Assembly (NCBI RefSeq): GCF_000967425.1
Contig: NZ_FO082820.1
Location: forward strand, 2,790,001 to 2,854,000
Direction of reading: 5' to 3'
Source of the DNA: Pseudorhizobium banfieldiae
GTDB taxonomy: Bacteria; Pseudomonadota; Alphaproteobacteria; Rhizobiales; Rhizobiaceae
DNA length: 64,000 nt
Shown: positions 19,066-49,229 of the stretch, piece after piece
How the letters are laid out: each line of letters begins with the position of its first letter
Numbering within the stretch: position 1 is the stretch's first letter
Notes under the pieces: generated by a model
Databases searched by the model: none
What the model was told of the DNA's origin: nothing
The model's input: only the letters and a program-made list of their open reading frames with translations
Position numbers and translations under genes: made by a program

Positions 19066-19090
19066 GGAACCGCAGCCAGCACTTGACGTT
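19066..19090 (+). promoter_or_regulatory. EcfG-type general-stress promoter, upstream of hybrid kinase
   Basis: GGAAC, 16 bases, CGTT: an exact match to the alphaproteobacterial general-stress consensus. The -10 element is about 50 bases before the kinase ATG at 19141. It overlaps the earlier in-frame start at 19090, which argues against that start. Confidence 0.8.
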
Positions 19091-19140
19091 TGTCATTCCT
19101 GATCGATTTAAGGCCGAATCTGAGGGGGAAACAGATTTCA

Positions 19141-21075
19141 ATGCCACATGAGTTACCCGTGACCGCGATTCAGGACGAGCGTTATCGCCTCCTCGTCGAC
19201 GCGATCACTGACTACGCCATCTACATGCTGGACCCCGAGGGGCGGATAAGCAGCTGGAACCCCGGGGCGGAACGATTTAAGGGCTATCGTGAACCGGAGG
19301 TCCTCGGGCATCACTTTTCGCGGTTCTACACGCCGGAGGACAGGGCGCGCGGTCTTCCGGCGACAGCATTGCATCGTGCGCAGACGGAAGGCCGCTTCGA
19401 GAACGAAGGATGGCGGGTAAGGAAAGACGGAAGCCGTTTCTGGGCACACGTCATCATCGACCCCATCTGGAGTCCCTCAGGCAGCCTCCTCGGCTTTGCG
19501 AAGATCACTCGGGACCTGACGGAGCGGCGACAGGCGGAACTGGAGCTGAAATCCAGCGAGCAGAAGTTTCAGCTGCTGGTGCAGGCCGTCAGTGACTATG
19601 CGATCTACATGCTCGATCCGACGGGCCACATCACCAACTGGAACTCCGGCGCGCAACGCATAAAGGGCTACAGCGCCGACGAAATTATCGGCTCCCACTT
19701 CTCACGCTTCTATACCGACGAAGACCGGGCTTCCGGCTTGCCTGAATTCGGCCTGGAAACGGCGCGGCGGGAGGGCCGGTTCGAGAAGGAAGGAACCCGG
19801 GTTCGCAAGGACGGCTCGCGGTTTCTCGCCCACGTGACCATCGACGCCATCCGCGACGAAACGGGGGAACTGCTCGGCTTTGCGAAAGTCACCCACGACA
19901 TCACCGAGAAGGTCGAGGCCCAGAACGCGCTGAACAGAGCGCGGGAGGAGCTGTTCCAGGCCCAGAAGATGGAGGCGATCGGACAACTGACCGGCGGCAT
20001 CGCCCATGACTTCAACAACCTGCTCATGGCAATCCTCGGCAGCCTCGAGATCCTCAAGAAACGGCTTCCAGACGACCCGTCGATGATGCCTCTCCTCGAC
20101 AATGCGATTCAGGGCGCCGACCGGGGCGTCGCGCTGATCCAGCGCATGCTCGCCTATTCGAGAAGACAGGATCTGGATCTGGCGGCGGTGGACATCCCTT
20201 CGGTCGTGGCCGGCATGATGGAGTTCGTGCAGCGATCCGTCGGCGCGGCAATCCAGATCCAGACGGATTTCGAAGAAGGACTTCCCGCCGTCCTGACTGA
20301 CGCGGTCCAGCTGGAAACCGCTCTCCTGAACCTTATCGTCAACGCCCGCGATGCCACGCCAAATGGTGGCACCATCACGATAGGCGCTACTCGAATGCAG
20401 GCTCAAGCGGATCTCTCCGAGCCCCGAACCCCCGGACTTCTTCGCCTCTCCGTCAGCGATACCGGCGAGGGCATGGACGAGGAGACGCTGGAGCGGGCGG
20501 CCACGCCCTTCTTCACGACAAAGGGCGTCGGCAAGGGGACCGGCCTTGGCCTCTCCATGGTTCAGGGGCTTGTCGAGCAGTCCGGGGGCAAGCTGCTTAT
20601 CGAGAGCCGCAAGGGCGAAGGAACGACTATCTCGCTCCTCCTCCCGCTGGCGCACCCGACCGCATCCTCCCAGCCTTCTCTGGAAGCAACACCCAGGCAG
20701 GCATTGCCTGAGTTGCCGGCCTCTCTGAAGATACTTGCTGTCGATGACGATGCTCTGGTCCTCATGAACACGACGCTGATGCTGGAGGATCTCGGGCATC
20801 AGGTCGTCGAGGCGTTCAACGGCGCTCAGGCTCTCGAGGTTCTGGAAAAGGGCGAGAGGTTCGATCTCGTGCTCACCGATCACTCCATGCCCAAGATGAC
20901 GGGTGCTGAGCTGGCGGGCCGCATCCATGAGCGCTGGCCGAGCCTTCCGGTCGTTCTCGCGACCGGCTATGCTGAACTCCCCTCGGGAGAAGGCGGAAAG
21001 CTCCCCAAACTCTCCAAGCCGTTTTCCCAGAGCCAGTTGGCCGAGATACTCGCCTTGGCACTGCCGGGGCGCTGA
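19141..21075 (+). CDS. PAS-PAS hybrid sensor histidine kinase with receiver domain
   Basis: Soluble hybrid histidine kinase of 644 residues, with no membrane segment. Two near-identical PAS domains (about residues 15-125 and 140-250) share the pattern YAIYMLDP-G-I-WN-GA-R-KGY and HFSRFYT-ED. They are followed by a HisKA domain with the phosphoacceptor His289 in GGIAHDFNNLLMA, an ATPase domain (DTGEGMDEE, TGLGLSMVQG), and a C-terminal receiver with phospho-Asp580 in VLTDHSMPKMTG. The ATG at 19141 has GAGGGGG about ten bases upstream. The paired PAS domains look like a duplication; their ligand cannot be read. The EcfG-type promoter suggests induction by general stress. Confidence 0.93.
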   Translation: MPHELPVTAIQDERYRLLVDAITDYAIYMLDPEGRISSWNPGAERFKGYREPEVLGHHFSRFYTPEDRARGLPATALHRAQTEGRFENEGWRVRKDGSRFWAHVIIDPIWSPSGSLLGFAKITRDLTERRQAELELKSSEQKFQLLVQAVSDYAIYMLDPTGHITNWNSGAQRIKGYSADEIIGSHFSRFYTDEDRASGLPEFGLETARREGRFEKEGTRVRKDGSRFLAHVTIDAIRDETGELLGFAKVTHDITEKVEAQNALNRAREELFQAQKMEAIGQLTGGIAHDFNNLLMAILGSLEILKKRLPDDPSMMPLLDNAIQGADRGVALIQRMLAYSRRQDLDLAAVDIPSVVAGMMEFVQRSVGAAIQIQTDFEEGLPAVLTDAVQLETALLNLIVNARDATPNGGTITIGATRMQAQADLSEPRTPGLLRLSVSDTGEGMDEETLERAATPFFTTKGVGKGTGLGLSMVQGLVEQSGGKLLIESRKGEGTTISLLLPLAHPTASSQPSLEATPRQALPELPASLKILAVDDDALVLMNTTLMLEDLGHQVVEAFNGAQALEVLEKGERFDLVLTDHSMPKMTGAELAGRIHERWPSLPVVLATGYAELPSGEGGKLPKLSKPFSQSQLAEILALALPGR

Positions 21076-21098
21076 ACAAAACGGTATAGCCATGCGTT
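21073..21098 (+). promoter_or_regulatory. Possible EcfG-type promoter (one mismatch) upstream of BON gene
   Basis: TGAAC, 17 bases, CGTT, ending 32 bases before the BON-domain ATG. The first base of the -35 element departs from GGAAC and it overlaps the end of the kinase gene, so this is weaker than the other sites. Confidence 0.4.
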
Positions 21099-21130
21099 GA
21101 TCCGGGGTTTCAATCCGGAGAAAAACGATC

Positions 21131-21406
21131 ATGGTCTTCAAGCATCAAAGCTTCCACGAACATCCACCAACGGTAGAGAACGAGTTTCCTCCGGCAGCTG
21201 CCTTGGAAAGTGCCGTCTCCGATGCGCTCGCCGCGGCTGGCGGCATCGACGCGACCGGCGTGCACGTTGTCGCGGAAGGTTCCACGATCATGTTGACAGG
21301 ATCAGTCATGTCCGAGGCCGAAGTCGCCCGCGCAGAGCAGATCGCCCGAAGCGTCGCTGGCGTCAGCAATGTGCGCAATGACATCAAGTCCGGCAGGATT
21401 GCCTGA
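21131..21406 (+). CDS. Small BON-domain protein
   Basis: A 91-residue protein that is almost entirely one BON domain. The core reads VHVVAEGSTIMLTGSVMSEAEVARAEQIA followed by GVSNVRNDI, the usual beta-alpha-beta ending of the family. BON domains bind membranes or phospholipids and recur in stress-induced proteins of rhizobia. There is no signal peptide, so it is probably cytoplasmic. It follows the hybrid kinase by 55 bases and may have its own stress promoter. A second BON protein lies at 32247. Confidence 0.85.
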   Translation: MVFKHQSFHEHPPTVENEFPPAAALESAVSDALAAAGGIDATGVHVVAEGSTIMLTGSVMSEAEVARAEQIARSVAGVSNVRNDIKSGRIA

Positions 21407-21420
21407 TCGAGCAACGGTGT

Positions 21421-21456: not shown

Positions 21457-23802
21457 TTAATCCCTCGGCAGAGCGTATGCGATAACATAGTCGCCGGGCT
21501 TCGTTCCGACCGAACCGTGACCACCCGCGACCATGACCACGAACTGCCGCCCGTCCTCAACGGCATAGGTCATCGGCGTTGCCTGACCTCCAGCCGGCAG
21601 GCGCGCACGCCAGATTTCCTCACCGGTGGTGAGGTTATAGGCGCGGAGATAATTGTCGACGGCCGCACCCAGGAAAGCGACGCCGCCCTTCGTGATCATC
21701 GGACCGCCGATACCCGGCACCCCGACCTTGAACGGCAGCGGCAACGGCGTCATGTCGTAGACGGTACCATTGCGGTGCTTGTAGGCGATCTCGCCGGTCC
21801 TGAGGTCGGCGCCGGCGACATAACCCCACGGCGGCGCCTGGCACGGGATCTGCAGCGGCCCGAGGAAGGGCCCCATGTAGACGCCATAAGGCGCGCCTTC
21901 ATTGCGGTTCAGCCCCTGCTCGCTCGCCTTCTCGTCGGCACCCTTCGGGGGAATCTCTTCCCGCGGCACGAGACGTACCGTGAAGCCCAGGTAGGTCGGC
22001 ATGCCGAACATCACCTGACGCTCGGGATCGATGGCAACACTACCCCAGTTGAACGTGCCAAAATTGCCGGGGTAGACCAGCGTACCGTTGATCGACGGCG
22101 GCGTGTATCGACCCTCATAGTTCAACTCGTGGAACCGGATGCGGCAGACCATCTGGTCGAACATCGAAATGCCCCACATGTCCTTTTCCTCCAGCGGCTC
22201 GGGCTTGAAGGTCAGGGCCGAGGTGGGCTGGGTCGGGGCGGTGAAGTCTTCCGGTATGGCACCCCCAGGTGCCGGCTCTGCCGTCACGTCGAGGAGCGGC
22301 TCACCGGTTTGGCGATTGAGCACGTAGATGTCGCCCTGCTTGGTGGGCCCAACCAGTGCCGGCACAACCGTCCCGTCATCCTGGGTAAGATCGAGGAGAA
22401 CCGGCTGTGCCGGCACATCCATGTCCCACAGGTCGTGATGGACGGTCTGGAAGACCCACCGATCGGCGCCGGTATTGATATCAAGCGCGACGATAGAGGA
22501 GGAGTACTTCTCCACGGACTCGCTACGCCCCATGCCGAGCTGATCGGGAACCTGGTTTCCAAGCGGAATATAGACGAGCCCTAACTCCTCATCGACGCTG
22601 AATATGGACCAGCTGTTGGGGGAATTGGCGGTATAGGTCTGCCCCGGCGGCAGTGGCTCCGTTTGCTCGGGGTTTCCCGAATCCCAGTTCCAGACAAGTT
22701 CGCCACTGTTGACGTCGAAGGCGCGGATGACACCGGACTGGGATTGCGTGGAGTAGTTGTCATTGACGGCGCCGCCGATGATGATTTTGCCGGCCGCAAT
22801 TACAGGCGGAGAGGTGGAATAATAGTAACCCGCCGGATTGTAGGGCATCCCGGTTTCGAGGCGTAGAACCCCCTGATCTGCAAATGACGTGCAGACTTCA
22901 CCACTCGCAGCATCGAGCGCGATCAGCCGCGCGTCGGACGTCGGAAGGTAGACCCGCTCCGCGCAAGGCGCATCCGCCTGCGCTTGCGGATCCGCGTAAT
23001 AGGTGACGCCGCGGCAGGTCTGGTGCTGTCGATCGGGATTGAGTCCTGCATTGGGGTCGTACTTCCACTTTTCCTCACCCGTCGTCGCGTCGATCGCAAT
23101 GGCCCAGTTGTGAGGCGTGCAGATGAAAAGGCTGTTGCCCACCTTCAACGGCGTGACCTGATAGGTCGTCTCCGTGACATCTTCCGGGAGCTTTACGTCG
23201 CCGGTCTGATAGCGCCAAACCTCCTCCAGCTCGTCGACATTCTCGACATTGATCTGATCGAGCGGCGAATAGCGCTGGCCGTAGTTCGTGCGACCATACT
23301 GGTGCCACTCACCCGGAGGAACAGGATTGCCCATGGTCGGGGCCGCCGCCACAGCGTCCTCTGGAAGTTCCCCCTCGACGTCGTAGGGATCCGTGAACAT
23401 GGAGATGACGGCGATCAGGATCGCCAGCGCAACAGACGCGGCAAGCGGTGCCGCACCAACGGGATAACGTGCGCCCGTGGGGCTCTGGAAGCCGAGCGGC
23501 TTGCGCATCCAAGGCGTCAGCAACCAGATTCCGAGCAGGATGATGACCCCGCCCCTCGGACCAAGCTGCCACCAGTCGAAGCCGACTTCCCAGATCGCCC
23601 AGCCGAGCGACCCCAGCACGATAAGGGCATAAAGCGTCAGGGCCGTTGACCGGCGCAGGTAAAGCAGCACAGCCGTCACGATAAATGCGATGCCGGTGAT
23701 CAGATAGTAGATACTGCCATCGAGCGCGAGCAACTGCCCTCCACCTACGGCGAGCGCAAGCCCCACCAGGCCGAACAAGATTGTCGTGATCAAAATAGCC
23801 AT
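21457..23802 (-). CDS. gcd: Membrane-bound PQQ-dependent glucose/quinate/shikimate-type dehydrogenase
   Basis: Quinoprotein of 781 residues that oxidises glucose (or a polyol/quinate) in the periplasm and passes electrons to ubiquinone. The first about 140 residues contain four or five transmembrane helices. The rest is an eight-bladed PQQ propeller with tryptophan-docking repeats such as ATTGEEKWKYDP and ITKGGVAFLGAAVDNYLRAY, and a VHHDLWDMDVPAQPVL segment typical of this family. No PQQ synthesis genes are in the window. The start lies about 64 bases after an EcfG-type promoter. Glucose is the best guess for the substrate, as in Gcd, but quinate or shikimate cannot be excluded. Confidence 0.88.
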   Translation of the reverse strand: MAILITTILFGLVGLALAVGGGQLLALDGSIYYLITGIAFIVTAVLLYLRRSTALTLYALIVLGSLGWAIWEVGFDWWQLGPRGGVIILLGIWLLTPWMRKPLGFQSPTGARYPVGAAPLAASVALAILIAVISMFTDPYDVEGELPEDAVAAAPTMGNPVPPGEWHQYGRTNYGQRYSPLDQINVENVDELEEVWRYQTGDVKLPEDVTETTYQVTPLKVGNSLFICTPHNWAIAIDATTGEEKWKYDPNAGLNPDRQHQTCRGVTYYADPQAQADAPCAERVYLPTSDARLIALDAASGEVCTSFADQGVLRLETGMPYNPAGYYYSTSPPVIAAGKIIIGGAVNDNYSTQSQSGVIRAFDVNSGELVWNWDSGNPEQTEPLPPGQTYTANSPNSWSIFSVDEELGLVYIPLGNQVPDQLGMGRSESVEKYSSSIVALDINTGADRWVFQTVHHDLWDMDVPAQPVLLDLTQDDGTVVPALVGPTKQGDIYVLNRQTGEPLLDVTAEPAPGGAIPEDFTAPTQPTSALTFKPEPLEEKDMWGISMFDQMVCRIRFHELNYEGRYTPPSINGTLVYPGNFGTFNWGSVAIDPERQVMFGMPTYLGFTVRLVPREEIPPKGADEKASEQGLNRNEGAPYGVYMGPFLGPLQIPCQAPPWGYVAGADLRTGEIAYKHRNGTVYDMTPLPLPFKVGVPGIGGPMITKGGVAFLGAAVDNYLRAYNLTTGEEIWRARLPAGGQATPMTYAVEDGRQFVVMVAGGHGSVGTKPGDYVIAYALPRD

Positions 23803-23866: not shown

Positions 23867-23891
23867 AACACATCGCCTTTGCGAAAGTTCC
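23867..23891 (-). promoter_or_regulatory. EcfG-type promoter reading into gcd
   Basis: On the minus strand: GGAAC, 17 bases, GTT. It lies about 65 bases before the dehydrogenase ATG. It is divergent from a similar site for the uracil-DNA glycosylase gene. Confidence 0.6.
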
Positions 23892-23908: not shown

Positions 23909-23933
23909 GGAACCAATCCGGCCAGATACGGTT
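23909..23933 (+). promoter_or_regulatory. EcfG-type promoter for the UdgX gene
   Basis: GGAAC, 17 bases, GTT, ending 18 bases before the ATG at 23952. It overlaps the earlier in-frame ATG at 23904, which is why I prefer the later start. Confidence 0.6.
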
Positions 23934-23951: not shown

Positions 23952-24578
23952 ATGGCGGCAACAGGTCGGGCATTCGGGTCAGGTGGGGAGCCAGGGAAGA
24001 ATCTGGGCGCGATCAGGAGTGCCGCCGAAAACTGTACCCGTTGCGACCTCTACAGGACAGCGACACATCTTGTTTTTGGTGAAGGCGCCGCTGACGCCAA
24101 CGTCGTTCTTGTCGGAGAGCAGCCGGGCGACAAGGAGGATCTCGCCGGTAGACCCTTCATTGGTCCCGCGGGCCGCTTCCTTGACGATTGCCTTGAGGAG
24201 GCAAACATTGACCGCACGCGCTGCTATGTCACCAATGCAGTCAAGCATTTCAAGTTCACGGTGCGGGGCAAGCGACGCATCCACTCCAAACCAAACCTGG
24301 GTGAGATTAGAGCATGCGCATGGTGGCTGTCGGCCGAGCTTCGCATGATCCAGCCGTCACTCGTGGTAGCACTCGGGGCCACCGCCCTTCATGCGCTTCT
24401 CGGAAAGGATGCGAAAGTTACCCGAGACAGGGGGCGCATCCTCTCGGCGCAGGACCTGCCACCGGTTCTTGTCACCATCCACCCCTCGGCATTGCTGAGG
24501 GCGCGGGGCCGACCCGACGCAGCACAGGAGCGCCAGCGGTTCGTGAACGAGTTGCGCCAGATCGAGGATTATCTTTGA
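23952..24578 (+). CDS. UdgX-type uracil-DNA glycosylase
   Basis: Uracil-DNA glycosylase superfamily protein of 208 residues. It has motif A GEQPGDKEDLAGRPFIGPAG, motif B HPSALLR and, decisively, a KRRIH loop with His at residue 111. In Mycobacterium UdgX the KRRIH histidine forms a covalent bond with the uracil site, making an irreversible protein-DNA complex, so the same is expected here. The N-terminal CTRCDLYRTATHLVFG resembles the iron-sulfur glycosylases (families 4/5). I prefer the ATG at 23952 with GGAGG five bases upstream; an upstream ATG at 23904 would add 16 residues. The gene lies next to sodC, sigma factor and ku-ligD and has an EcfG-type promoter, so it is a stress-repair gene. 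Confidence 0.9.
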   Translation: MAATGRAFGSGGEPGKNLGAIRSAAENCTRCDLYRTATHLVFGEGAADANVVLVGEQPGDKEDLAGRPFIGPAGRFLDDCLEEANIDRTRCYVTNAVKHFKFTVRGKRRIHSKPNLGEIRACAWWLSAELRMIQPSLVVALGATALHALLGKDAKVTRDRGRILSAQDLPPVLVTIHPSALLRARGRPDAAQERQRFVNELRQIEDYL

Positions 24579-24593: not shown

Positions 24594-25315
24594 ATGACCT
24601 ACGAACTCTACTACTGGGACGGCATTCCCGGCCGCGGCGAATTCGTCCGACTGGCGCTGGAGGATGCCGGGGCAGACTATCGTGACGTGGCGCGAGAGCC
24701 CGGCAGGATGCGGGAAATGATGGCGTTCCTGAACGGCGAACGCGGCCCGCATGTCCCATTCGCGCCGCCATTCCTGAAGGATGACGATCTCGTCATCTCC
24801 CATGTTGCCAACATTCTTCGATATCTCGGCCCGAAGCTCGGACTCGTACCGGCCGATGAGGCATCCCGGACTTTTGCCCACCGGCTGCAACTGACGTTGA
24901 CGGATTTCCTCACCGAGATCCACGATACTCATCATCCGCTTGGCGTGGATGCCTACTACGAGGATCAGAAGGTGGAGGCGCAAGGCCGCACAGCCCGCTT
25001 CCTCTCCTCGAGGCTTCCAAAGTTCCTCACTACTTCGAGACCGTGCTGTCGGCGAACCACGGAAACGAGGGAAATCTGATCGGAGGGCAGATCGGCTATA
25101 TCGATCTATCGCTTTTCCAGGTGATGGAGGGGCTGCATTATGCATTTCCCCGCGCCATGCGGGACAGCGGCAATCGCTGGCCCGGGATCACCACACTTCA
25201 GGCGAGAGTGAAGGCGCGCCCCCGCCTTCGCGACTACCTGTCCTCACAGCGGCGGCTGCCGTTTAACGAATCCGGCATCTTCCGCCACTATCCGGAACTG
25301 GACGTCGAGGCCTAG
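24594..25315 (+). pseudogene. Glutathione S-transferase, frameshifted
   Basis: Glutathione S-transferase family coding sequence split between two frames. The first part (24594 to about 25028) has the N-terminal thioredoxin-like domain starting MTYELYYWDGIPGRGEFVRL and most of the helical domain. The second part continues in another frame as HYFETVLSANHGNEGNLIGG and ends RHYPELDVEA at 25315. One missing base near 25026-25031 explains it: adding a C restores KFLHYFETVL, a normal GST sequence. The whole would be about 240 residues, full length. Both halves look otherwise intact, so the change is recent or a sequencing error. GGAG lies seven bases before the ATG. Confidence 0.85.
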
Positions 25316-26412: not shown

Positions 26413-26437
26413 AACGCACCGTTATGGCTTTGGTTCC
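26413..26437 (-). promoter_or_regulatory. EcfG-type promoter of the sigma-factor gene
   Basis: On the minus strand: GGAAC, 16 bases, CGTT, an exact consensus match about 47 bases before the sigma start. It implies that the gene is transcribed by its own or a related EcfG sigma factor. A divergent site for ku lies 50 bases away. Confidence 0.78.
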
Positions 26438-40976: not shown

Positions 40977-40979
40977 GGC

Positions 40980-43490
40980 CTACCTCATCAACGGAAAGAG
41001 GCCAAGCACGCCAAAGGATGCCACGGCGGTTACGGTCAGGAAGTGCCAGTAAAGGGTGACGTTGACGATGTCCTGGTCATAGCGCGCGGTCATCCTGCCG
41101 GTGAGGCTTCGAGCGAGGCAATATCCCTGCATGATGCAGCCAGCCCCCGCATGGACCACGGTCCAGATCGCAATGATCCAGACCGTAGCCGGATAGACGT
41201 GGATGGTCGGCTGCATGTCGTGGGTATAGGGGCCGAGCAGCCCGGCCACTGCGGCGGCGACCGTGACGATCAGGGACAGGCCGATTGCGGCCCGGGCTCC
41301 ACCTGCCCTGTCCTTTCGGTTGAGGTGTCGCGCAGCCAGCATGAGGCCCCATGAAATGAGAAACAGCACGAGTGCCGTCATCGGCCAGAGGATGCCGGGC
41401 CCGCCGAGACCCGCAGTGAAGTCGCCATGGATGGTCCAGTAGAAGAAGTAGCCGAACATCAGGCTGGCAAAGGCTGTGCCGTCACCCACCATGGTGATGA
41501 ACATCGCCCACCACCCGACGGAAGCCGGGCCTGACCGGTAGATCGGCAGGCGCTTGCCCAGGCCGACATCCATGTCCGGGGCCTCCGGTATCTCTGCCGT
41601 GCCCGTCCATAGCCAGTAGAGGATGGCAAGGAGGGTGATAATGGCGCAGACGATCGTCACCGCCCACCAATGGAATGTCAGCGCGATGAAGACGCCACCT
41701 AGTGCCATGGCGGCGATGATTGTGACATGGGACGTGCCTCCCACGCGCAGGCACTGGATAGGCTCCGCGTCCAGCACTGAGGTGACGAGCGTTTCGCGTC
41801 GACCCGACTTGGCATCCGGAAGGTAATAGCGTCCTTCGTCGATATTCTTCTGGAGGTCTGGCTGGTCCCAGAGTGGATAGCGGCTCTCGATGATCGGAAC
41901 CGATCGCATGCCCCAGTTCTCATCGGGATCGTTCGTCCATTCAAGCGTCCCGGATCGCCAGGGATTGAGGTCCCCAATCTTCGGCTTGGGCCTGAAGATG
42001 TCCACGACGATGGTGAGGACGCCGCTGGCGAAGATGAAGGCGCCGATGGTGGAGACCAGGTTGAACCAGTCCCAGCCGATATCCTCGGGATATGTGAAGA
42101 CCCGGCGCGGCATGCCGCGAAGCCCCGACAAATGCATCGGGAAGAACCCGACATTGAAGCCGATGAACATCAGCCAGAAGGCCACCTTGCCCCAAGCATC
42201 GCTCAGCTTCTTGCCGGTGACGAACGGGAAGTAATAGTAGATGCCGGCAACCACCGGGAACAGCATCCCGCCGATCAGCACGTAGTGCAGGTGGGCCACG
42301 ATGAAATAGGTATCGTGCGCCTGCCAGTCGAACGGCACCAGCGCCACCATGACGCCCGTCAACCCGCCGATCACGAAGGTGATCAGGCCGCCAGCACCGA
42401 ACAGCATGGGCACCGAGAATATCACCCGGCCGGCAAGCATCGTCGCGATGAAGACGAATATCTGCACGCCTGTCGGAATGACAACTGCCTCCGACGCCGC
42501 AGAAAAGAAGGCAAGCGATATCTGCGGCAGGCCGGTGGTGAACATGTGGTGGACCCACAGGCCAAAACTCAGGAATCCGGTTCCCACCGCCGCAAGCACG
42601 ATCCAAGAATAGCCCACGATCGGCCGCTGGGAAAAAGTCGGCACGATCATCGCCATCAGCGCGATGGCCGGCAGGAAGATGATGTAGACCTCCGGATGCC
42701 CGAATATCCAGAACAGATGCTGCCAGAGGAGCGGGTCCCCGCCGCGCTCTGCGTCGAAGAACGGCCAGTCGAACATCCGCTCCATTTCGAAGAGGAGGTC
42801 GCCAGCAATCAGCGGCGGGAACGCGAACAGGATCATACCCGCCACGATCAGCAGATACCATGCAAACATCGGCATCATGTTGATCCGCATGCCGGGCGCG
42901 CGGCATTTCATGATCCCGACGATGATCTCGACGGCGGCAGCGATGGATGCGACCTCGATAAAGGAGAGGCCCAGCAACCATATGTCAGCGCCGATCCCCG
43001 AGAATTCCTTGTTCGTCGCCAGGGGCGGATACATGAACCAGCCGGTGCTCGGCGCCGAATTGAAGAAGATCGAGCCGCAGACGAAGATGCCACCGAGGAG
43101 AAAGCTCCAGAAGCCGAAGGCGGAGAGGCGCGGAAACGGCAGTTCCCGGGCGCCCAGCATGGAGGGAAGGAGGAAGATCGCGATCGCCTCGAAGATCGGT
43201 ACGGCAAACAGGAACATCATCACTGTGCCGTGCAGGGTGAAGGCCTGGTTGAAGAAATCGGCCGTCAGCAGATCATTGTCCGGCACCGCGAGTTGCAGCC
43301 GCATCAGCAATGCAAGCACGCCAGCAAACAGCATGAAGCCGAATGAGGCGACGCCGTACCAGAGGCCGATTTCGCTGTTGTTGACGGAGGTCCAGTAACG
43401 CCAGCCGCCCGGCGTCTTCCAGACCTTCCGCAGTCGCTCCTCCTGCGCAGCCCGCTCCTCGGGAGAGAAATCGCCGAGTACCTCTGTCAT
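40980..43490 (-). CDS. ctaD: Cytochrome c oxidase subunits I and III, fused
   Basis: Heme-copper oxidase polypeptide of 836 residues. Residues about 25-560 are subunit I with twelve helices, including QAFTLHGTVMMFLFAVPI (low-spin heme His), WLFWIFGHPEVYIIFLP-type HPEVY (CuB His-Tyr) and HDTYFIVAHLHYVLIGG (heme a3 His). From about residue 630 the chain continues as subunit III with helices and the HAGAGCIMQG and YDQDIVNVTLYWHFLTVT region. Fusion of I and III is known in caa3-type oxidases. The start at 43490 overlaps the ctaC stop by four bases. Confidence 0.94.
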   Translation of the reverse strand: MTEVLGDFSPEERAAQEERLRKVWKTPGGWRYWTSVNNSEIGLWYGVASFGFMLFAGVLALLMRLQLAVPDNDLLTADFFNQAFTLHGTVMMFLFAVPIFEAIAIFLLPSMLGARELPFPRLSAFGFWSFLLGGIFVCGSIFFNSAPSTGWFMYPPLATNKEFSGIGADIWLLGLSFIEVASIAAAVEIIVGIMKCRAPGMRINMMPMFAWYLLIVAGMILFAFPPLIAGDLLFEMERMFDWPFFDAERGGDPLLWQHLFWIFGHPEVYIIFLPAIALMAMIVPTFSQRPIVGYSWIVLAAVGTGFLSFGLWVHHMFTTGLPQISLAFFSAASEAVVIPTGVQIFVFIATMLAGRVIFSVPMLFGAGGLITFVIGGLTGVMVALVPFDWQAHDTYFIVAHLHYVLIGGMLFPVVAGIYYYFPFVTGKKLSDAWGKVAFWLMFIGFNVGFFPMHLSGLRGMPRRVFTYPEDIGWDWFNLVSTIGAFIFASGVLTIVVDIFRPKPKIGDLNPWRSGTLEWTNDPDENWGMRSVPIIESRYPLWDQPDLQKNIDEGRYYLPDAKSGRRETLVTSVLDAEPIQCLRVGGTSHVTIIAAMALGGVFIALTFHWWAVTIVCAIITLLAILYWLWTGTAEIPEAPDMDVGLGKRLPIYRSGPASVGWWAMFITMVGDGTAFASLMFGYFFYWTIHGDFTAGLGGPGILWPMTALVLFLISWGLMLAARHLNRKDRAGGARAAIGLSLIVTVAAAVAGLLGPYTHDMQPTIHVYPATVWIIAIWTVVHAGAGCIMQGYCLARSLTGRMTARYDQDIVNVTLYWHFLTVTAVASFGVLGLFPLMR

Positions 43491-44551
43491 TTCAGCCCCG
43501 CAAGGTAAGTGGCGATACGTTCGGCATCTCCGTCTGGAAGCATCCCGAAGGACGGCATCCGTGATCCTGGCTTGATCTCGGAGGGGTGACGAATGAAGCG
43601 GGCGACATTTTCCGGCGTGTTTGGCATGGTTCCGGCGCCGACGCTGCCGCGCGCGCCGAAGGCGGTGAGGTTCGGACCGATCCTCCCCTGCGCCTCCGTT
43701 CCGTCGATCGCATGGCAGGCTCCACAGCCGTGTCGCAGAAAAAGGGCATGCCCCTCGCTGGCTCCATCGGTCTCGGCTGTTCCGCTCCCCGCAAGCCACG
43801 CCTCGAAATCCGAGGGCTCGAGTGCCTCCACGAAGAAAGCCATCAGCGCATGCGACGGACCGCAGAACTCGGCACAAACACCGCGATAGATGCCGGGCTT
43901 GGACGCCTCCAGCATGATGTGATTGGTTCGGCCCGGAATCATGTCCATCTTGCCCCCGAGGGAGGGAACCCAGAAGGAGTGGATGACGTCCGGAGACTTG
44001 ACGAGGAAGACCACACGCTGGCCGACCGGCATCTTTATCTCGTTCGCACGTTCCAGAAGGACCTCGCCTTGCTCATCCAGATAGCGCACCCGCCACCAAA
44101 ACTGTTCTCCGGTAACCTCGATCTTGCGAACGCCCTCTGCAATGGCCGAAGACCAGGGTCGCAGGTTTGGGATCAGCCAGACGGCGTAGGAAAGGAGCAT
44201 CGTCAGCACGATCACCGGACCGATCGCCCCGCACCAGAGAATGACGCGACCGGCCACCCGTTCAGAATGCGGCTCGCGCGCCTTGCGTGCGGCATAGAAC
44301 AGCACCAGCACCACGGCGGCCCAAATCAGGCCACCTCCGATCAGCATGACGTAGAAAAGGCGGGCCACGTCAGAAGCCTCGGGACCGGCCGGATCCAGGG
44401 CAGACTGAATACCGCTGCAGGAGGTCAGCAGGGGAACGGCGATTACCCAAGGGGTGTGCCTAAATAGTCTCTGCCTCCGCTCGACAAGGCGGGCAGTGAG
44501 GTGCCTTGGCTCGTCTCTTCCAACGCTCAGGCAAGCTGTATGTCGCGTCAA
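43487..44551 (-). CDS. ctaC: Cytochrome c oxidase subunit II with fused cytochrome c domain (caa3 type)
   Basis: Subunit II lipoprotein. It has a signal segment WVIAVPLLTSC with lipobox LTSC, two transmembrane helices, the CuA domain with HSFWVPSLGGKMDMIPG and CAEFCGPSHALM, and a C-terminal cytochrome c domain with CGACH and a distal Met in SRMPSFGM. The start is uncertain: no ATG lies near the signal peptide. The TTG at 44551 (after GGGGGGTGAA) and the GTG at 44581 are the nearest standard starts, giving 34 or 44 residues before RLFRHTPWV. An EcfG-type promoter lies at 44600-44624. It begins the oxidase operon (ctaC, fused ctaDE, membrane protein, CtaG type, cytochrome c). Confidence 0.9.
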   Translation of the reverse strand: MTRHTACLSVGRDEPRHLTARLVERRQRLFRHTPWVIAVPLLTSCSGIQSALDPAGPEASDVARLFYVMLIGGGLIWAAVVLVLFYAARKAREPHSERVAGRVILWCGAIGPVIVLTMLLSYAVWLIPNLRPWSSAIAEGVRKIEVTGEQFWWRVRYLDEQGEVLLERANEIKMPVGQRVVFLVKSPDVIHSFWVPSLGGKMDMIPGRTNHIMLEASKPGIYRGVCAEFCGPSHALMAFFVEALEPSDFEAWLAGSGTAETDGASEGHALFLRHGCGACHAIDGTEAQGRIGPNLTAFGARGSVGAGTMPNTPENVARFIRHPSEIKPGSRMPSFGMLPDGDAERIATYLAGLK

Positions 44552-44599: not shown

Positions 44600-44624
44600 A
44601 ACCGATCCAAAGAAGATTTGTTCC
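44600..44624 (-). promoter_or_regulatory. EcfG-type promoter of the cytochrome oxidase operon
   Basis: On the minus strand: GGAAC, 17 bases, GTT, ending 18 bases before the GTG and 48 bases before the TTG candidates for ctaC. It is divergent from the site at 44664. Confidence 0.6.
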
Positions 44625-44663: not shown

Positions 44664-44688
44664 GGAACCCAGGACGGTCTCGCGGGTT
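44664..44688 (+). promoter_or_regulatory. EcfG-type promoter of the 64-residue protein gene
   Basis: GGAAC, 17 bases, GTT, ending 37 bases before the ATG at 44726. Confidence 0.65.
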
Positions 44689-44725: not shown

Positions 44726-44920
44726 ATGTTCAATTTTCTCCAGCGCTTGTTTGGCCGGACCAGAACCTCCAATCCGGATCTGCACACAGAGCACGCATCC
44801 GAAGAAGTGCAGGTCCTGGTACCTGAAGCCGTGGAACTGCCCCTGCCCAAGGGGCCCCAGGAGGAAATCAGCGTACCGGCGTCGATCAACGGGCGGGACC
44901 TCTCCAGCGGCAGGCTTTAA
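44726..44920 (+). CDS. Small hypothetical protein, possibly stress-induced
   Basis: A 64-residue protein starting MFNFLQRLFGRTRTSNPDLH and continuing with an acidic, Pro-rich tail. The short amphipathic N-terminal helix could touch the membrane. No family is recognised. GAAGGAAG precedes the ATG, and an EcfG-type promoter lies just upstream. The DJ-1-type gene follows after 36 bases and probably shares the transcript. Confidence 0.7.
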   Translation: MFNFLQRLFGRTRTSNPDLHTEHASEEVQVLVPEAVELPLPKGPQEEISVPASINGRDLSSGRL

Positions 44921-44956: not shown

Positions 44957-45517
44957 ATGGCTGACTTCAAGTCTGCGTCCATTCTTATTCTCGCGACCGA
45001 TGGTTATGAACGGTCGGAACTTCGCGTCCCCCTCGAGGAACTCAGAAAACAGGGTGCTGAGGTGCGGATCGCCTCGATCAAGCCGGGACAGATCAAGAGC
45101 TGGGACGAGACGGACTGGGGCGATAGCGTCCACGTCGACCTCGTCATCTCGGAGGTGAACGTCGAGGAGTTCGACGCCATTGTGCTTCCCGGCGGGCAAA
45201 TCAACCCCGATGTCCTCCGCACCGACGAAGGTGCGGTAGAGCTTGTCCGGAGCTTCGTGAAGAGCGGCAAACCCGTGGCCGCCATCTGCCATGGGCCATG
45301 GCTTCTGGTAGAAGCCGACGCGCTGCGCGGCCGCAAGGCAACGTCCTACTCATCGATCAAGACCGACCTACGTAACGCTGGCGCGCAGTGGGTGGATGAG
45401 GCCGTGGTTGTCGACAACGGCATCATCACTTCGCGCTCGCCGAAGGACCTGCAGCCCTTCGTCGCCAAGATTGTCGAGGAAGTCAAGGAAGGTCGCCACG
45501 CCCGTCGCGCGGCCTGA
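44957..45517 (+). CDS. DJ-1/PfpI family protein (type 1 glutamine amidotransferase-like)
   Basis: Cysteine-centred protein of 186 residues of the PfpI/YhbO/DJ-1 superfamily, acting as a glyoxalase/deglycase, protease-like enzyme or stress chaperone. The nucleophile is the Cys in VAAICHGPWLLVEAD, with the acid Glu in DGYERSELRVPLEELRKQ and the AIVLPGGQINPD strand. It follows a small stress gene and is convergent and back-to-back (no gap) with topoisomerase IB. Oxidative or carbonyl stress is the likely context. Confidence 0.92.
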   Translation: MADFKSASILILATDGYERSELRVPLEELRKQGAEVRIASIKPGQIKSWDETDWGDSVHVDLVISEVNVEEFDAIVLPGGQINPDVLRTDEGAVELVRSFVKSGKPVAAICHGPWLLVEADALRGRKATSYSSIKTDLRNAGAQWVDEAVVVDNGIITSRSPKDLQPFVAKIVEEVKEGRHARRAA

Positions 45518-46627
45518 TCATGCCTCTGCGGCTGCGGCCCTCCACCGCTGGAGGGGGTCCGCAGCCGCACCCGTTTGCGTCTGAAGGCTTGAGCTCTTCA
45601 GTACTGCCAGCAGACGCCGCTCATCGGCGCGCAAGCCACGCAGCTGCGGAAGCTCAAGCTCGTTCTTGAGCAGCCGTTCCACCGGCGATGCGTCATCCAC
45701 GAGGGCCAGCACGGCCGGATGGATATAGCTGGAGCGGCAGACGGCGGGGGTATTGTGGAGCCGCTCGGATGCGGCCTTGCAGATCAGCTTCACACGGGGC
45801 TGAGAGCCTTCCTTGCAGGCCTGCCAGACGGCGGCAAAGCCGGCAAGGCTCCCACCCCAGGTCCTAAACGTTTTCGCCGAGACCGGAAAACCCGCGACGT
45901 CGGCGAGATAGGCATTGAGCCGGCCGGAATCGACGGGATGGGCGGTACCACCATCATCGGGCCAGGAAAAGAGTTGACGCCCTGGCAGATCGGCTATCTC
46001 CTCGAATATCCGCTGGAGCCGTGGGTGCTTGATCGTGTGACTGACCCGTTTTCCTCCCTTTGCCGTGAAGCGAAGGACCACGGCCTCTTCCGTCAACGTC
46101 ATGTGTCGCTTCAACAGGGTCGTCGCCCCGTAGGTCCTGTTTTCCTTTGCATAAGCTTGATTGCCGACGCGCAGATGCGCGGTATCCATCAACGCGATGA
46201 TCGCGGCGAGGACCGCCTCGGGGGTGTCCAGTCCTAAAGCCAGATCCCGCTCGATCCGCCGCCGGATTCGCGGCAGCACCTCCCCAAAACGGGCAAGTTG
46301 ATCGAACTTCAGCTCGCTCCGAAGACTCTGCCATTCCGGATGATACCGATACTGCTTGCGCCCGCGGGCATCATACCCGGTCGCCTGCAGGTGTCCTCGG
46401 CGATCCATGCATATCCAGACATTTTCATAGGCCGGGGGCAGTCCAAGAGCCACAATCCGGCGCTTCTCCTCCGGGTCACTCAGGACGCTCCCATCGGGTA
46501 AACGATAGCAGAAACCCTTGCCCCTCCTTTCACGGCGTATTCCGGGTTCGACGTCGCTCACATAGGTGAGACCTGCAGCCTTGAGGGACTGTTCATCGAA
46601 GGTGGGGAGATCTGTGATGGCATCCAT
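45518..46627 (-). CDS. DNA topoisomerase IB
   Basis: Poxvirus/bacterial type IB topoisomerase of 369 residues that relaxes DNA supercoils through a 3'-phosphotyrosine. The N-terminal domain includes GIRRERRGKGFCYRLPDG. The catalytic domain has RVGNQAYAKENRTYGATTLLK (active Arg region), HTIKHPRLQRIFEEI, FRTWGGSLAGFAAVW and the nucleophile Tyr in NTPAVCRSSYIHPAV. The ATG at 46627 is only nine bases after the -10 element of an exact EcfG promoter, so the mRNA may be leaderless. An HWE kinase gene lies upstream on the same strand, with the promoter in between. Confidence 0.92.
   Translation of the reverse strand: MDAITDLPTFDEQSLKAAGLTYVSDVEPGIRRERRGKGFCYRLPDGSVLSDPEEKRRIVALGLPPAYENVWICMDRRGHLQATGYDARGRKQYRYHPEWQSLRSELKFDQLARFGEVLPRIRRRIERDLALGLDTPEAVLAAIIALMDTAHLRVGNQAYAKENRTYGATTLLKRHMTLTEEAVVLRFTAKGGKRVSHTIKHPRLQRIFEEIADLPGRQLFSWPDDGGTAHPVDSGRLNAYLADVAGFPVSAKTFRTWGGSLAGFAAVWQACKEGSQPRVKLICKAASERLHNTPAVCRSSYIHPAVLALVDDASPVERLLKNELELPQLRGLRADERRLLAVLKSSSLQTQTGAAADPLQRWRAAAAEA
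45527..45569. terminator. Strong hairpin at the convergent DJ-1 / topoisomerase ends
   Basis: TGCGGCTGCGG pairs perfectly with CCGCAGCCGCA and encloses a smaller CCTCCA/TGGAGG stem. It lies nine bases after the DJ-1 stop, inside the last codons of the topoisomerase gene. There is no T-run. Confidence 0.5.
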
Positions 46628-46636: not shown

Positions 46637-46661
46637 AACGGCGGCCCCTGACCTTCGTTCC
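46637..46661 (-). promoter_or_regulatory. EcfG-type promoter of the topoisomerase IB gene
   Basis: On the minus strand: GGAAC, 16 bases, CGTT, an exact match. Only nine bases separate the -10 element from the ATG. Confidence 0.72.
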
Positions 46662-46673: not shown

Positions 46674-48383
46674 TCACAGAAGGAATTCCTGCGCCGCCTC
46701 CCCCGGGCCCCGCTCAAAGGCGTCCCTCGGCGCAACAAGGGTCCAGACGAGCCCGGTGGCGAGATAGCTGATCTCGACCTGTCCGCCAAAGGCCGCAGCA
46801 GCGTGACGCCTGATGATGGTCGTGCCGAAGCCGGTCGTCTGCGGTTCGACGGCAGGGGGACCGCCGATCTCCTCCCATGACAGGTGGAGCAGGGACTTCG
46901 GGTCAGACGGATCTTCCTGTCGCCACGACATGCGAACCCGGCCATCAGGAACCGAAAGTGCACCGTACTTTATGGAGTTGGTGGCAAGTTCATGCAGGAC
47001 CAAACCGAGATTCTGGACCGCCTCGGCGCGCAGGAGGAAATCGTCGCCCTGCAGTTCCACGCGGTCCGCGACGTTTGCGAAGGTATCAAGTTGCACAGTG
47101 ACGAGGCGCCGCAACGGCACCCCGGTCCACTGTTCGATCGCGAGGGCCTCGATAGACTTCCCCAAACCCTGGATTCTGTCGGAGATCGCCTTCTGGAACT
47201 CATCCATGTCCTTTGACTGGCGAGCCAGCTGTCGCATCATGGCCTGGACCAGGGTGAGGATGTTCTTGGTTCGATGGACGAGTTCCTGGAGGATAAGGTG
47301 CATCCGGTCTTCCGCCTGGCTGCGGTCGAAGGATGCGTTGGAGAGAGCCACGGAGATCTGGCTGGCTTCGCGGATTCGCGTCTCCACGGGCGAAACGATT
47401 TCTCCCTTGCCGATACGCTCCGCCATCTGGGCAATCTGCCGGATGGGTATCCGCAACTGGCGGGCAATCAGGTAGCCGCAAAGCATGCCTATACCAAGAA
47501 AGAGCAGGCTGCCGATTATCAGGCTCCGGGAGGCTTCGACGATTTCACTCTGAGCAGCCTCGATCGGCCCCCAGATCACCGCCCTCCAGGTCGATCCCAC
47601 AACCTGTCCATATCCGTAGATCTGCCGTGGCTTGCCATCCACATCTTCGATCGTCCCGTTGATGCCCGTCATCAATTTCAGTGTCTCTTGTGGAAAGGCA
47701 CTGATCGGCGAAGCGTTACTGGCTCCCATGGAGGTGATTATCGTGCCTGCGCCGTCCACGATTGCCACCGACCAGCCAGGGGGCAGGTTGTCCGTGCTGA
47801 TCACTCTGGCGAGATCGGCCGCGTTCTGCGTCATGATCAAAGCGACAGCGTCAGAGGAGCGAGTCATCCTCTCTGGAAGGGGCATTGTGACGTTAAAGAC
47901 GAACTGCTCGCTCGTTGCGCCGAAGAAGACGTCGGAGACATGCGTGACGCCCGTCTCGAGCGCAGTAGCGAGGGCAGATGGATTCGACACTTTCCTGAGC
48001 GGCGTGCCGTAGGGCAGGCGCGTGTTCAAAAGCTGCTGTCCCTCGGCGTCCACCGCCAGAACATAGAGCGAATTGGAGCGAAGGCTATTTTGCGTGCGAT
48101 TGTGGAAGGCTCGAAGATCGCCCTGCTCCAGTTCGGGCGAAGTGGAGAGAATCCGCAGAGTCGTCGTCATATCCTGCAGCGTCCGCTCAACCGAACGCGC
48201 CACAACTTGCGCGTCCTCTGCAGTATTGGCAGCAAGAATCTCGCGGTCGCGGCGCTCCAGCTCCATCATCAGGAGCAGCACGAACACCACGAGCGGCAGG
48301 GCCACGACCGCTGAAAGGGCCATCAGATAGACGCTGATCGGTGCAGTGGGGAAGGTCGGTGAAAACCGAAACAGCTTCCGCAC
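46674..48383 (-). CDS. HWE/HisKA_2-family membrane sensor histidine kinase
   Basis: Sensor kinase of 569 residues. Two membrane helices (about residues 16-40 and 280-302) flank a periplasmic sensing domain of the Cache type. A HAMP segment (IRQIAQMAERIGKGEIVSPV) and the kinase core follow: phosphoacceptor His in LILQELVHRTKNIL, then VLHELATNSIKYGALSVPDG and LSWEEIGGP, marks of the HWE family. Kinases of this family (PhyK-like) feed the PhyR-NepR-EcfG switch. It lies inside the EcfG-promoter cluster but no cognate response regulator is adjacent. The promoter of the gene is not visible in the 246 bases upstream, which otherwise hold nothing I recognise. Confidence 0.9.
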   Translation of the reverse strand: MRKLFRFSPTFPTAPISVYLMALSAVVALPLVVFVLLLMMELERRDREILAANTAEDAQVVARSVERTLQDMTTTLRILSTSPELEQGDLRAFHNRTQNSLRSNSLYVLAVDAEGQQLLNTRLPYGTPLRKVSNPSALATALETGVTHVSDVFFGATSEQFVFNVTMPLPERMTRSSDAVALIMTQNAADLARVISTDNLPPGWSVAIVDGAGTIITSMGASNASPISAFPQETLKLMTGINGTIEDVDGKPRQIYGYGQVVGSTWRAVIWGPIEAAQSEIVEASRSLIIGSLLFLGIGMLCGYLIARQLRIPIRQIAQMAERIGKGEIVSPVETRIREASQISVALSNASFDRSQAEDRMHLILQELVHRTKNILTLVQAMMRQLARQSKDMDEFQKAISDRIQGLGKSIEALAIEQWTGVPLRRLVTVQLDTFANVADRVELQGDDFLLRAEAVQNLGLVLHELATNSIKYGALSVPDGRVRMSWRQEDPSDPKSLLHLSWEEIGGPPAVEPQTTGFGTTIIRRHAAAAFGGQVEISYLATGLVWTLVAPRDAFERGPGEAAQEFLL

Positions 48384-48629
48384 TACATCTTACCTCCCGC
48401 GGCGTCTGAAACGGCCGCATCCGCAGAAAGCCTCATATGTCCGCCCTCACGTGATATGCACGAGGACGTAATTTAGCGACTTTTCAAAGGGGGCCAATCT
48501 TTTGATCGTCCGCGATGAAAATTTGCGTGCCGGGGTAAAGGCTGCCTGCGCGCAACGGCCTCGGCCGACATGCGGAGTCACAGATCGAAGCAATGTTGCG
48601 CCGCTTCGAAACATGTGGCCGAGCACGCC

Positions 48630-48860
48630 CTATCGATCCGCAGGATGCTCCCCAACGTCGAAGTTCGAATCCCACTCATTCGCGGGCTCATCCTTGCCTG
48701 GCGGAACCTTATGTGCAGTGGCGTCTTCCGACCCGGTAATCACGGTGGGTTTTGCGCTAGCGACCCCAGAACTGTGCCCGCCCGCCTTCACGTTCGCGAA
48801 CTGACCCGTCGCGTCACGCTCGACTGTCTTCGCATCGGCCGGTTTTTTAGAGGAAGTCAT
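48630..48860 (-). CDS. Small hydrophilic protein, unknown function
   Basis: A 76-residue disordered, polar protein (SKKPADAKTVERDATGQFAN, later GKDEPANEWDSNFDVGEHPA). No helix-rich or membrane part is seen. It lies 38 bases after the 89-residue protein gene on the same strand and probably shares its EcfG-type promoter at 49205. Its composition resembles desiccation/hydrophilin-like stress proteins, which is inference. Confidence 0.7.
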   Translation of the reverse strand: MTSSKKPADAKTVERDATGQFANVKAGGHSSGVASAKPTVITGSEDATAHKVPPGKDEPANEWDSNFDVGEHPADR

Positions 48861-48898
48861 CGTCTACTCCTGTCTGTGCCAGTATACGACAGCCGGAG

Positions 48899-49168
48899 TC
48901 ACTCCGGCTCGCGCTTCGTCTCTCGGCCTTCAACGCGCTTCGACCCGAATTCGTTGCGGCTGCCGGTGCCGGCACGCTGGTAATCGGCGCGATAAGACTC
49001 GCGTGCCCACGCCTTTGACATCTCGTTTCGGCCATAGGAATCTTCGGCAGTTGCCGCGGAGGGGCTTTCCCGATTGTCGGCGGAAGGGGGTCGATCGCTT
49101 GGGACGTCGCGCTCGTCCCGCAATCCGTCTTTGCGGTAGCCGTCAGACAGTGTCTGATCCTTGCTCAT
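48899..49168 (-). CDS. Small hydrophilic protein, unknown function
   Basis: An 89-residue, charged and Ser/Arg-rich protein (SKDQTLSDGYRKDGLRDERD, later RESYRADYQRAGTGSRNEFG), probably unstructured. AGAGAGGC lies upstream of the ATG. An EcfG-type promoter (49205-49229) is 37 bases before it. A perfect inverted repeat (AGCCGGAGT / ACTCCGGCT, 48891-48909) overlaps its stop codon. Confidence 0.75.
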   Translation of the reverse strand: MSKDQTLSDGYRKDGLRDERDVPSDRPPSADNRESPSAATAEDSYGRNEMSKAWARESYRADYQRAGTGSRNEFGSKRVEGRETKREPE

Positions 49169-49204
49169 GATAACGCCTCTCTTCGGTAATTTCGGTCACC
49201 TTCC

Positions 49205-49229
49205 AACAGACGCGGGAAATGATTGTTCC
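49205..49229 (-). promoter_or_regulatory. EcfG-type promoter of the 89-residue protein gene
   Basis: On the minus strand: GGAAC, 17 bases, GTT, the rightmost such site I found. It also marks the right boundary of the stress island. Confidence 0.65.

Follow-up and report, generated by a model that had tools for sequence, protein, structure and literature searches.

Can the regulon of an extracytoplasmic function (ECF) sigma factor be gathered physically around the gene for that sigma factor? The question is raised by a 64,000-nucleotide stretch of the 4.58-Mb genome of Pseudorhizobium banfieldiae (C1:2790001-2854000; hereafter the window), in which positions 19066-49229 (hereafter the island) contain a gene for an EcfG-type sigma factor, ecfG2, among many matches to the EcfG promoter pattern. 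A preliminary description of this sequence proposed a physically clustered stress regulon. The clustering is borne out by our analysis, with 24 matches compared to a mean of 3.3 for permuted motifs, but its uniqueness is not, because a second cluster was found in the genome and loci of the ecfG1 type are enriched as well. We conclude, at a probability of about 0.82, that the island is a conserved, genus-wide general-stress regulon island of the Pseudorhizobium/Neorhizobium group (Rhizobiaceae) around a non-canonical EcfG. As predicted from sequence, it consists of EcfG2, a short NepR-like protein, an HWE kinase, and about seventeen other units, the majority of which have an EcfG-type promoter of their own. 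The predicted units span end-joining repair, UdgX, topoisomerase IB, a pyrroloquinoline quinone (PQQ) dehydrogenase, glycogen synthase and debranching enzyme, a cytochrome oxidase, BON, DUF892, and DUF2934 proteins, and very small proteins. EcfG-type promoters stand before stress genes, as in a general stress regulon.

Promoter sites in the window and the genome

We scanned for GGAAC-N16-18-GTT by pattern, not by matrix, as exact and as one-mismatch matches. The window contains 27 exact matches compared to 3.79 expected from 100 shuffles, none of which reached 27 (largest, 10); this expectation agrees with an earlier estimate of about four. Twenty-four of the 27 fall within the island. The other three (2008+, 12662+, and 16902-) each lie within a called gene. 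Among the island matches, 22 have a spacer of 17 or 18, and 20 of these are intergenic ahead of a gene, consistent with the original placement of nearly all sites before gene starts, and two are intragenic (19933- and 34841+). The 20 include one site 232 bp upstream of coxB and one ahead of a 25-codon gene. The first count was 17 exact sites and one near-exact site; ours is 22 exact sites with spacers of 17 or 18 (24 with spacers of 16-18), and the near-exact site, before glgX, has a counterpart in 12/12 relatives. For the longer pattern GGAAC-N16-18-CGTT, of which nine island sites had been reported, we counted 10 compared to 0.84 expected (P 2e-8) and 127 genome-wide. When the boxes of the motif were permuted (90 permutations, the true one included), the true motif gave 24 matches in the island, compared to a mean of 3.3 and a next best of 13. 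When 31 stretches from the rest of the genome were pooled and scanned with the same 90 permutations, the true motif ranked low (33 matches; mean, 52).

Placement before genes was scored as an exact spacer-17/18 site no more than 150 bp upstream, using our own gene calls. Such a site precedes 15/31 island genes compared to 0/32 genes of the flanks (Fisher P 2e-6), which confirms that the flanks lack these promoters. The 15/31 leaves out three short genes with exact sites, namely the 65-amino acid (aa) and DUF2934 genes, both added by hand later, and the 25-codon gene. An equal density of sites before genes elsewhere would have spoken against the preliminary description, and the same test gave 10/599 genes in 30 spread stretches of the genome; in all 40 control stretches, ten of which were chosen deliberately, it gave 35/813. 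In the relatives described below, 126/127 gene-start sites have a spacer of 17 or 18, and spacer-16 sites (1/127) were ruled out as promoters. A CC following the GTT was not favoured in these gene-start sites; the mirror-symmetric form GGAAC-N17-GTTCC was inspected by eye only.

A strict form of the motif, GGAAC-N16-CGTT, occurs 65 times in the genome, with seven sites in the island compared to 0.43 expected; for seven sites in 30 kb the scan statistic gave P 0.00015 (simulation with the 63 sites on the main contig). The genome-wide total barely exceeds the 53 sites of a reversed control, which implies that many isolated strict matches are probably background. This small excess, and the fact that the region was searched by eye and picked after the hits had been seen, could suggest that a short-motif scan produced the cluster as an artefact of chance or composition. 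Such an artefact is rejected by the shuffles, the scan statistic, the permuted motifs, and above all by the relatives, where sites are conserved gene by gene and 20/20 genus members are enriched, so that we assign it a negligible probability.

A second cluster lies at C1:2,507-2,524 kb (six strict sites; P 0.0026 with the island removed), and smaller groups lie at C1 2869-2872 kb and 3507-3519 kb. We therefore rejected the notions that the island is unique in the genome and that it is the genome's densest cluster, the second cluster being denser in strict sites. The genes of the second cluster (C1:2507334-2525000; L053 and L054) encode two alpha-amylase-domain proteins, which look like TreZ/TreY (trehalose-type), an NADH dehydrogenase-2 type enzyme, a universal stress protein, and a DUF3008 protein, with YetF nearby. 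In the smaller cluster at C1:2868-2873 kb (L059:14321-18825), DUF892, phospholipase D-type, and endonuclease/exonuclease/phosphatase genes stand behind exact sites, and one mirror-symmetric site lies between two divergent genes. Sites of the form GGAAC-N17/18-GTTCC between divergent genes (L055:16613, L056:18686, and L059:17725) could fire both ways.

Conservation among relatives

We gathered 45 loci via LigD relatives in named genomes. Twelve of these (L008-L018 and L028; hereafter the relatives) have their genes in the same order as the island; they come from Pseudorhizobium, Neorhizobium, strains under the name Rhizobium, and two isolates identified only as Rhizobiales. Each contains 12-18 sites compared to 1.4-1.8 expected, and in the locus counts their density is 6.9 sites per 10 kb. 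The sites persist gene by gene although the letters of the spacers differ, and the flanking genes vary between relatives. A locus from a Mesorhizobium metagenome-assembled genome (L019) has 11 sites and different genes, eight more distant alphaproteobacterial LigD loci (L020-L027) have 3-5 sites, and the remaining 24 loci have 0-7. A second sample comprised 20 genus members, four of them already used and 16 new, with genes truncated at a stretch end scored as having no site; around the sigma factor gene, all 20 genomes contain 7-15 sites per 20 kb. The promoter sites and their conservation, together with the gene identities, the clade of the sigma factor, and the synteny of the island, are established at the level of sequence.

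The EcfG2 sigma factor and its candidate partners

The island sigma factor gene, ecfG2 (25860-26366, minus strand), encodes a protein that matches PF04542, PF08281, and PF22029 above cut-off (sigma regions 2 and 4 and an EcfG sigma2 likeness), and its best match in the PDB is chain A of entry 5uxx, chain B of which is NepR. In a FastTree tree it falls into a 16-tip clade with Rhizobium etli EcfG2 (support 0.943; two tips are one protein), separate from the nine ecfG1-locus sigma factors in the same tree. We therefore assign the predicted protein as an EcfG2-type paralogue, that is, a second, non-canonical EcfG. The reported R. etli EcfG2 (PF00052; PMC3892343), of the same clade, is likewise a second sigma factor beside the canonical EcfG1. 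At E 1e-80, EcfG2 was found in 54/56 genus members (two with a stop inside the match), in 4/199 family members, all of this genus, and in 1/106 genera sampled from the family. A third EcfG-like sigma factor, 55% identical to that of the island, is encoded at C1:803335-803799 (L066), and the gene downstream of it looks by eye like a potassium channel. The proximal promoter of ecfG2 is an exact N17-CGTT site (26413-26437, minus), and an exact site precedes ecfG2 in 12/12 relatives and in 16/16 new genomes of the second sample. A second exact N17 match (26476-26500, minus) lies 110 bp before ecfG2 in head-to-head overlap with the ku1 promoter.

Beyond the genus, loci were assigned to the ecfG1 or ecfG2 type by similarity to the island sigma factor and not by their neighbours. 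Ten ecfG2-type loci of 20 kb from nine other genomes of the order contained 59 sites in 199 kb, and 10 ecfG1-type loci (same nine genomes and one more) contained 53 sites in 200 kb, compared to 18 sites in 400 kb in 20 round-number control stretches of those genomes. Both locus types are thus enriched about six-fold over other stretches (P about 3e-5 each), which implies that sites commonly cluster near ecfG genes; a preference of such clusters for ecfG2 over ecfG1 was unsupported (rank test P 0.32). In the tree, the clade of R. etli EcfG2 and the island sigma factor takes in five of the 10 ecfG2-type loci (L101-L104 and L106; 39 sites in 99 kb); of the others (together 20 sites in 100 kb), L105, L107, L108, and L109 lie outside it and L110 groups with an ecfG1-type sigma factor. 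Eight plasmid ecfG2 loci, all in the EcfG2 clade, contain 101 merged sites in 298 kb. The island, with 24 matches in 30 kb, and its relatives are the richest groups among the loci counted. On plasmids, L094 (Martelella mediterranea pMM593) and L099 (Sinorhizobium sojae pSJ05684b) have 22 and 23 matches in 40 kb (22 and 19 after merging of mirror pairs), and both have a NepR-like gene; these loci are probable regulon islands on plasmids.

The plasmid loci also bear on whether the island was acquired horizontally as a genomic island, such that the likeness of its promoters would stem from common import and not from selection for clustering. EcfG2-type genes lie beside CsbD, ferritin-like, and isochorismatase genes on a Mesorhizobium plasmid, beside topoisomerase IB, superoxide dismutase, and oxidase genes on a Martelella plasmid, and beside UdgX and DUF892 genes on a Chelatococcus plasmid. 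Moreover, the flanking genes differ between relatives, and a close EcfG2 ortholog occurs in only one of the 106 genera. By contrast, nearly all genus members have the sigma factor, the window contains no tRNA gene, and recombinase and transposase families were absent from the 40 window reading frames scanned, which are not all window genes (edge repeats were not searched). We consider this explanation less likely than not; an ancient import is a possibility, and one compatible with a regulon island.

A candidate anti-sigma factor gene, nepR2 (31197-31397, plus), lies 5 kb from ecfG2 and encodes a short protein of 66 aa (or 56 aa from 31227) that is present in 12/12 relatives and 15/16 second-sample genomes. 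PF18557 matches all 16 NepR2-family proteins scanned (our own and 15 of 89 homologues; E up to 0.1, best 0.00018), and a NepR2 profile placed two NepR chains, 5uxx_B and 4qic_B, at the top of 177,635 PDB sequences with weak E values of 0.027 and 0.042. In the NepR core helices, EIxxEPVPDRLLxLAxxLQKAL was compared against IPDRFLDLLEKL. We file this candidate as NepR-like and not as NepR. A linkage profile built from our NepR2 and the 12 relatives found NepR2-like proteins at 7/18 ecfG2-type loci, five within 0.4 kb of the sigma factor gene; by clade, they occur at 7/13 loci within the EcfG2 clade and 0/5 outside it. The profile found none at ecfG1-type loci (0/10), in other stretches (0/20), in our own stretches (0/31), or at distant ligD loci (0/9).

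Since some database homologues are already annotated as NepR-domain proteins, the single protein has not gone unnoticed, and NepR paralogues are already known; the linkage of a NepR-like gene to EcfG2 is the part for which no description was found in the open-licence literature searched. Extra NepR-like proteins per genome have been reported as RsiA1/RsiA2 of Sinorhizobium meliloti and as NepR homologues of Methylobacterium extorquens (PMC4814048). According to that report, the three extra NepRs of M. extorquens bound no EcfG in two-hybrid experiments, whereas here the NepR-like gene is linked to EcfG2 in several genera. R. etli is reported to have no anti-sigma factor gene near ecfG2 (PMC3892343), and none was found by the NepR2 profile around the CIAT 652 copy (L096), unlike in the island, where one is conserved.

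The predicted HWE-family sensor kinase (46674-48383, minus; PF07536, 69.3 bits; sensor part dCache-like, under the Pfam cut-off) has a copy 63-82% identical in 11/11 relatives searched (L009 not included), 12.1-17.6 kb from ligD compared to 16.7 kb here. HWE kinases are reported to coordinate the general stress response (PMC12148442). PhyR was not found in the island, and the best PhyR-type match of a genome search lies elsewhere; the phyR-nepR-ecfG1 locus is at C1 2,778-2,779 kb, outside the window and 30 kb to the left of the island. In two genomes (G120 and G122), a phyR-promoter-like site, compared as a site alone, lies 35-39 kb from ligD or ecfG2 on the same contig, compared to 37 kb here.

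From the known partner switch (PMC4814048, PMC6599016), we infer that the island sites are transcribed, by EcfG1 or EcfG2, as follows. Stress would lead the HWE kinase or kinases to phosphorylate PhyR, encoded 30 kb away, a phosphotransfer that would feed the switch. Phosphorylated PhyR would titrate NepR and NepR2, of which NepR2 would probably bind and restrain EcfG2, and freed EcfG1 and/or EcfG2 would transcribe the island. EcfG2 would also drive its own gene in a positive feedback. Between the 65-aa gene and nepR2 lies an intrinsic-terminator-like hairpin (31073-31100, plus; 12 pairs then a T-run), which is weak evidence alone since 1.0 such site is expected by chance in the region. If this arrangement is real, with ecfG2 behind its own site and nepR2 without one and behind the hairpin, the sigma factor would rise without its inhibitor, a switch-like design. 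The canonical PhyR-NepR-EcfG locus resembles the island in having an EcfG sigma factor, a NepR-like protein, an HWE kinase, and GGAAC-N16-CGTT promoters, one of them before the sigma factor gene. The island differs in that no PhyR was found in it, in its short NepR2, 5 kb from ecfG2 and lacking an exact promoter, and in its packing of about 20 sites into 30 kb.

Alternatively, the canonical PhyR-NepR-EcfG1 system could be the sole driver of the island, with EcfG2 and NepR2 as passengers or with specificity for other promoters. The motif of the island agrees with the consensus published for R. etli EcfG1, GGAAC-N16-CGTT, and overexpression of R. etli EcfG2 is reported to have left the ecfG1 promoter uninduced, but the same source reports that in E. 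coli the promoters of phyR and ReC64 were activated by R. etli EcfG2 (PMC3892343). The nearby phyR-nepR-ecfG1 locus and the equal enrichment of ecfG1-type loci also fit control by EcfG1 alone; the exact site before ecfG2 in every relative and second-sample genome, and the position of ecfG2 inside the largest site group found, argue for a part of EcfG2. We regard sole control by EcfG1 as a real possibility, though a less probable one.

Several observations weigh against a conserved regulon island around EcfG2. R. etli EcfG2 is reported to prefer its own promoter over the ecfG1 promoter (PMC3892343), and its pattern is described as undetermined in a review, which together imply that EcfG2 may not read GGAAC-GTT. 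NepR2 scores 19.1-19.7 bits against PF18557, below the cut-off of 25.7 for a NepR domain, and nepR2 has an exact EcfG-type promoter in 0/12 relatives and 1/15 second-sample genomes. Like nepR2, the BON1, HWE kinase, and 88-aa genes lack an exact site. Two exact matches, before a hybrid PAS histidine kinase gene (site 19066-19090, plus, N17; gene 19159-21075) and a 67-aa gene (site 38372-38397, minus, N18; gene 38071-38274), are not conserved (1/11 relatives and 2/13 of the second sample, and 1/8 relatives, respectively) and are probably local or accidental because relatives lack them. In the second sample, an exact site is missing before gcd and glgA (5/16 each), the 65-aa gene (4/15), and the 72-aa gene (4/16), and ku-ligD-ku2 is present in only 9-10/16 genomes, which implies that island contents vary. 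Finally, strict sites are denser in the second cluster (six in 16.3 kb) than in the island (seven in 27.6 kb).

Genes of the island and their wider context

The NepR-like gene, the HWE kinase, and the 25-aa gene are not among the genes listed in the preliminary description. Conservation counts below are given for the 12 relatives and then for the 16 new genomes of the second sample, with genomes that have the gene as denominators, and sites are exact unless stated. At the left, gcd (21457-23802, minus) encodes a membrane PQQ-dependent glucose/quinate/shikimate-type dehydrogenase (TIGR03074, 1164.8 bits, above cut-off) behind an N17 site (23867-23891, minus; 12/12, 11/16). It is followed by the udgX promoter (23909-23933, plus; N17; 5/5, 5/5) and the gene for a UdgX-family uracil-DNA binding protein (23952-24578, plus; TIGR03914, 274.6 bits, above cut-off). 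A glutathione S-transferase gene (24594-25315) is split over two overlapping frames, either by a frameshift or by a sequencing error; 7/7 relatives checked have a single frame of 240-241 aa. Downstream of ecfG2 on the same strand lies sodC (25331-25840, minus; PF00080), for a Cu/Zn superoxide dismutase. Such second genes of units, with ligD and the 61-aa gene, are among the island genes that lack an exact site.

The end-joining genes ku1 (26539-27396, plus; PF02735) and ligD (27399-29939, plus; phosphoesterase-ligase-polymerase; TIGR02776/2777/2778/2779 above cut-off) share an N17 promoter (26488-26512, plus; 11/12, 10/10), and ku2 (29943-30743, minus; PF02735) has an N18 promoter (30767-30792, minus; 12/12, 9/9). 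The next N17 site (30797-30821, plus; 12/12, 11/15) precedes the gene for a 65-aa protein with an EDTFPASDP motif (30855-31052, plus), which is present in 12/12 relatives and has no NCBIfam match. Beyond nepR2, promoters precede an isochorismatase-family gene (site 31550-31574, plus, N17; gene 31601-32185; 8/8, 4/4), a unit of the BON-domain gene BON2 (32247-32639) and a 61-aa gene (32661-32846) (site 32187-32212, plus, N18; 9/10, 8/8), and a DUF892 gene (site 32852-32876, plus, N17; gene 32928-33425; 11/12, 16/16). Shortly upstream of the isochorismatase promoter, the dinucleotide CT is repeated about 16 times (31495-31527). Further promoters belong to a 72-aa gene (site 33730-33754, minus, N17; gene 33488-33706; 8/9, 12/16), a DUF2934 gene (site 33795-33819, plus, N17; gene 33847-34140; 12/12, 16/16), and glgA (site 34241-34266, plus, N18; gene 34302-35873; 11/12, 11/16). 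The debranching enzyme gene glgX (35923-38001, minus; TIGR02100, 1052 bits) has the near-exact site GGAAC-N17-ATT (38030-38054, minus), with GGAAC-N17/18-ATT 27-30 bp upstream of glgX in 12/12 relatives.

An exact N18 site at 38755-38780 (plus) precedes no called gene. A 25-codon frame follows it (38821-38898, plus), which would encode a hydrophobic, probably membrane miniprotein, and site and frame have the same places in 11/11 relatives with the upstream 88-aa gene. In 12 sequences, the ratio of nonsynonymous to synonymous polymorphism (pN/pS) is 0.18 in frame, the other two frames giving 1.45 and 1.79, and the three codon positions have 12, 4, and 22 variable sites, a pattern that fits coding. 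In the second sample, 7/16 stretches have the 88-aa gene, of which six have the site and a recognisable frame and one has neither; some of the frames have diverged, such as MVREWFEVAGFALVIAACYMFVIPV.

At the right, an oxidase operon for cytochrome c, CtaG, COX1, and COX2 (38909-44368, minus; PF13442, PF09678, PF00115, and PF00116) has an N17 match 232 bp before coxB (44600-44624, minus), a gene beyond the reach of the 12 relatives' loci. An N17 promoter (44664-44688, plus; 2/2 in reach, 3/3) serves a 64-aa gene (sm64, 44726-44920) and a DJ-1/PfpI gene (44957-45517). The DNA topoisomerase IB gene (45518-46627, minus; PF01028, PF21338) has an N17-CGTT promoter (46637-46661, minus) with gene-start scores of 0/1 and 1/3; a strict site directly after the HWE kinase gene, as here, also occurs in G120 and G122. 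The last N17 site (49205-49229, minus) precedes an 89-aa gene (48899-49168) beyond the reach of the relatives' loci.

Several island genes have EcfG-dependent counterparts elsewhere. In Sphingomonas melonis, Ku, topoisomerase IB, GlgX, and glycosyltransferase genes are reported as EcfG-dependent, and those for Ku, topoisomerase IB, and glycosyltransferase carry such EcfG motifs, in agreement with the island (PMC6599016); in Sphingopyxis granuli, ku-ligD is reported as EcfG-dependent (PMC7083833). The S. melonis genes for Ku (#1102), GlgX (#1276), and topoisomerase IB (#1831) are listed under different transcript numbers in that report, which implies that they do not form one block there, and no EcfG stress island is described for either species in the available parts of these two sources. 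The CIAT 652 ecfG2 copy likewise differs from the island in having no ku or ligD annotated within 20 kb. In the open-licence literature searched, as far as its texts were available, we found no clustered EcfG regulon or EcfG stress island, which does not prove that none has been described.

Two or more EcfG sigma factors are reported for about half of the completed genomes of Alphaproteobacteria, and the extra copies lack a satisfactory explanation (PMC3892343). A conserved island that brings EcfG2 together with a kinase, a NepR-like protein, and about twenty sites provides a compact, testable system for this question. With it, end-joining repair, UdgX, topoisomerase IB, glycogen, and respiration are connected in one probable stress programme, and a hidden gene for a protein of 25 residues comes to light. 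The island also suggests that the members of an ECF regulon can lie physically together and stay so within a genus. Taking the loci together, we tentatively propose that non-canonical EcfGs of the Rhizobiales form second partner switches, semi-independent and with a short NepR-like inhibitor of their own, and that their targets, including genes for 25-residue proteins, gather around the sigma factor gene as islands on chromosomes or plasmids. If this is true, a whole stress programme can be transferred, and can evolve, as a unit together with its own regulator.

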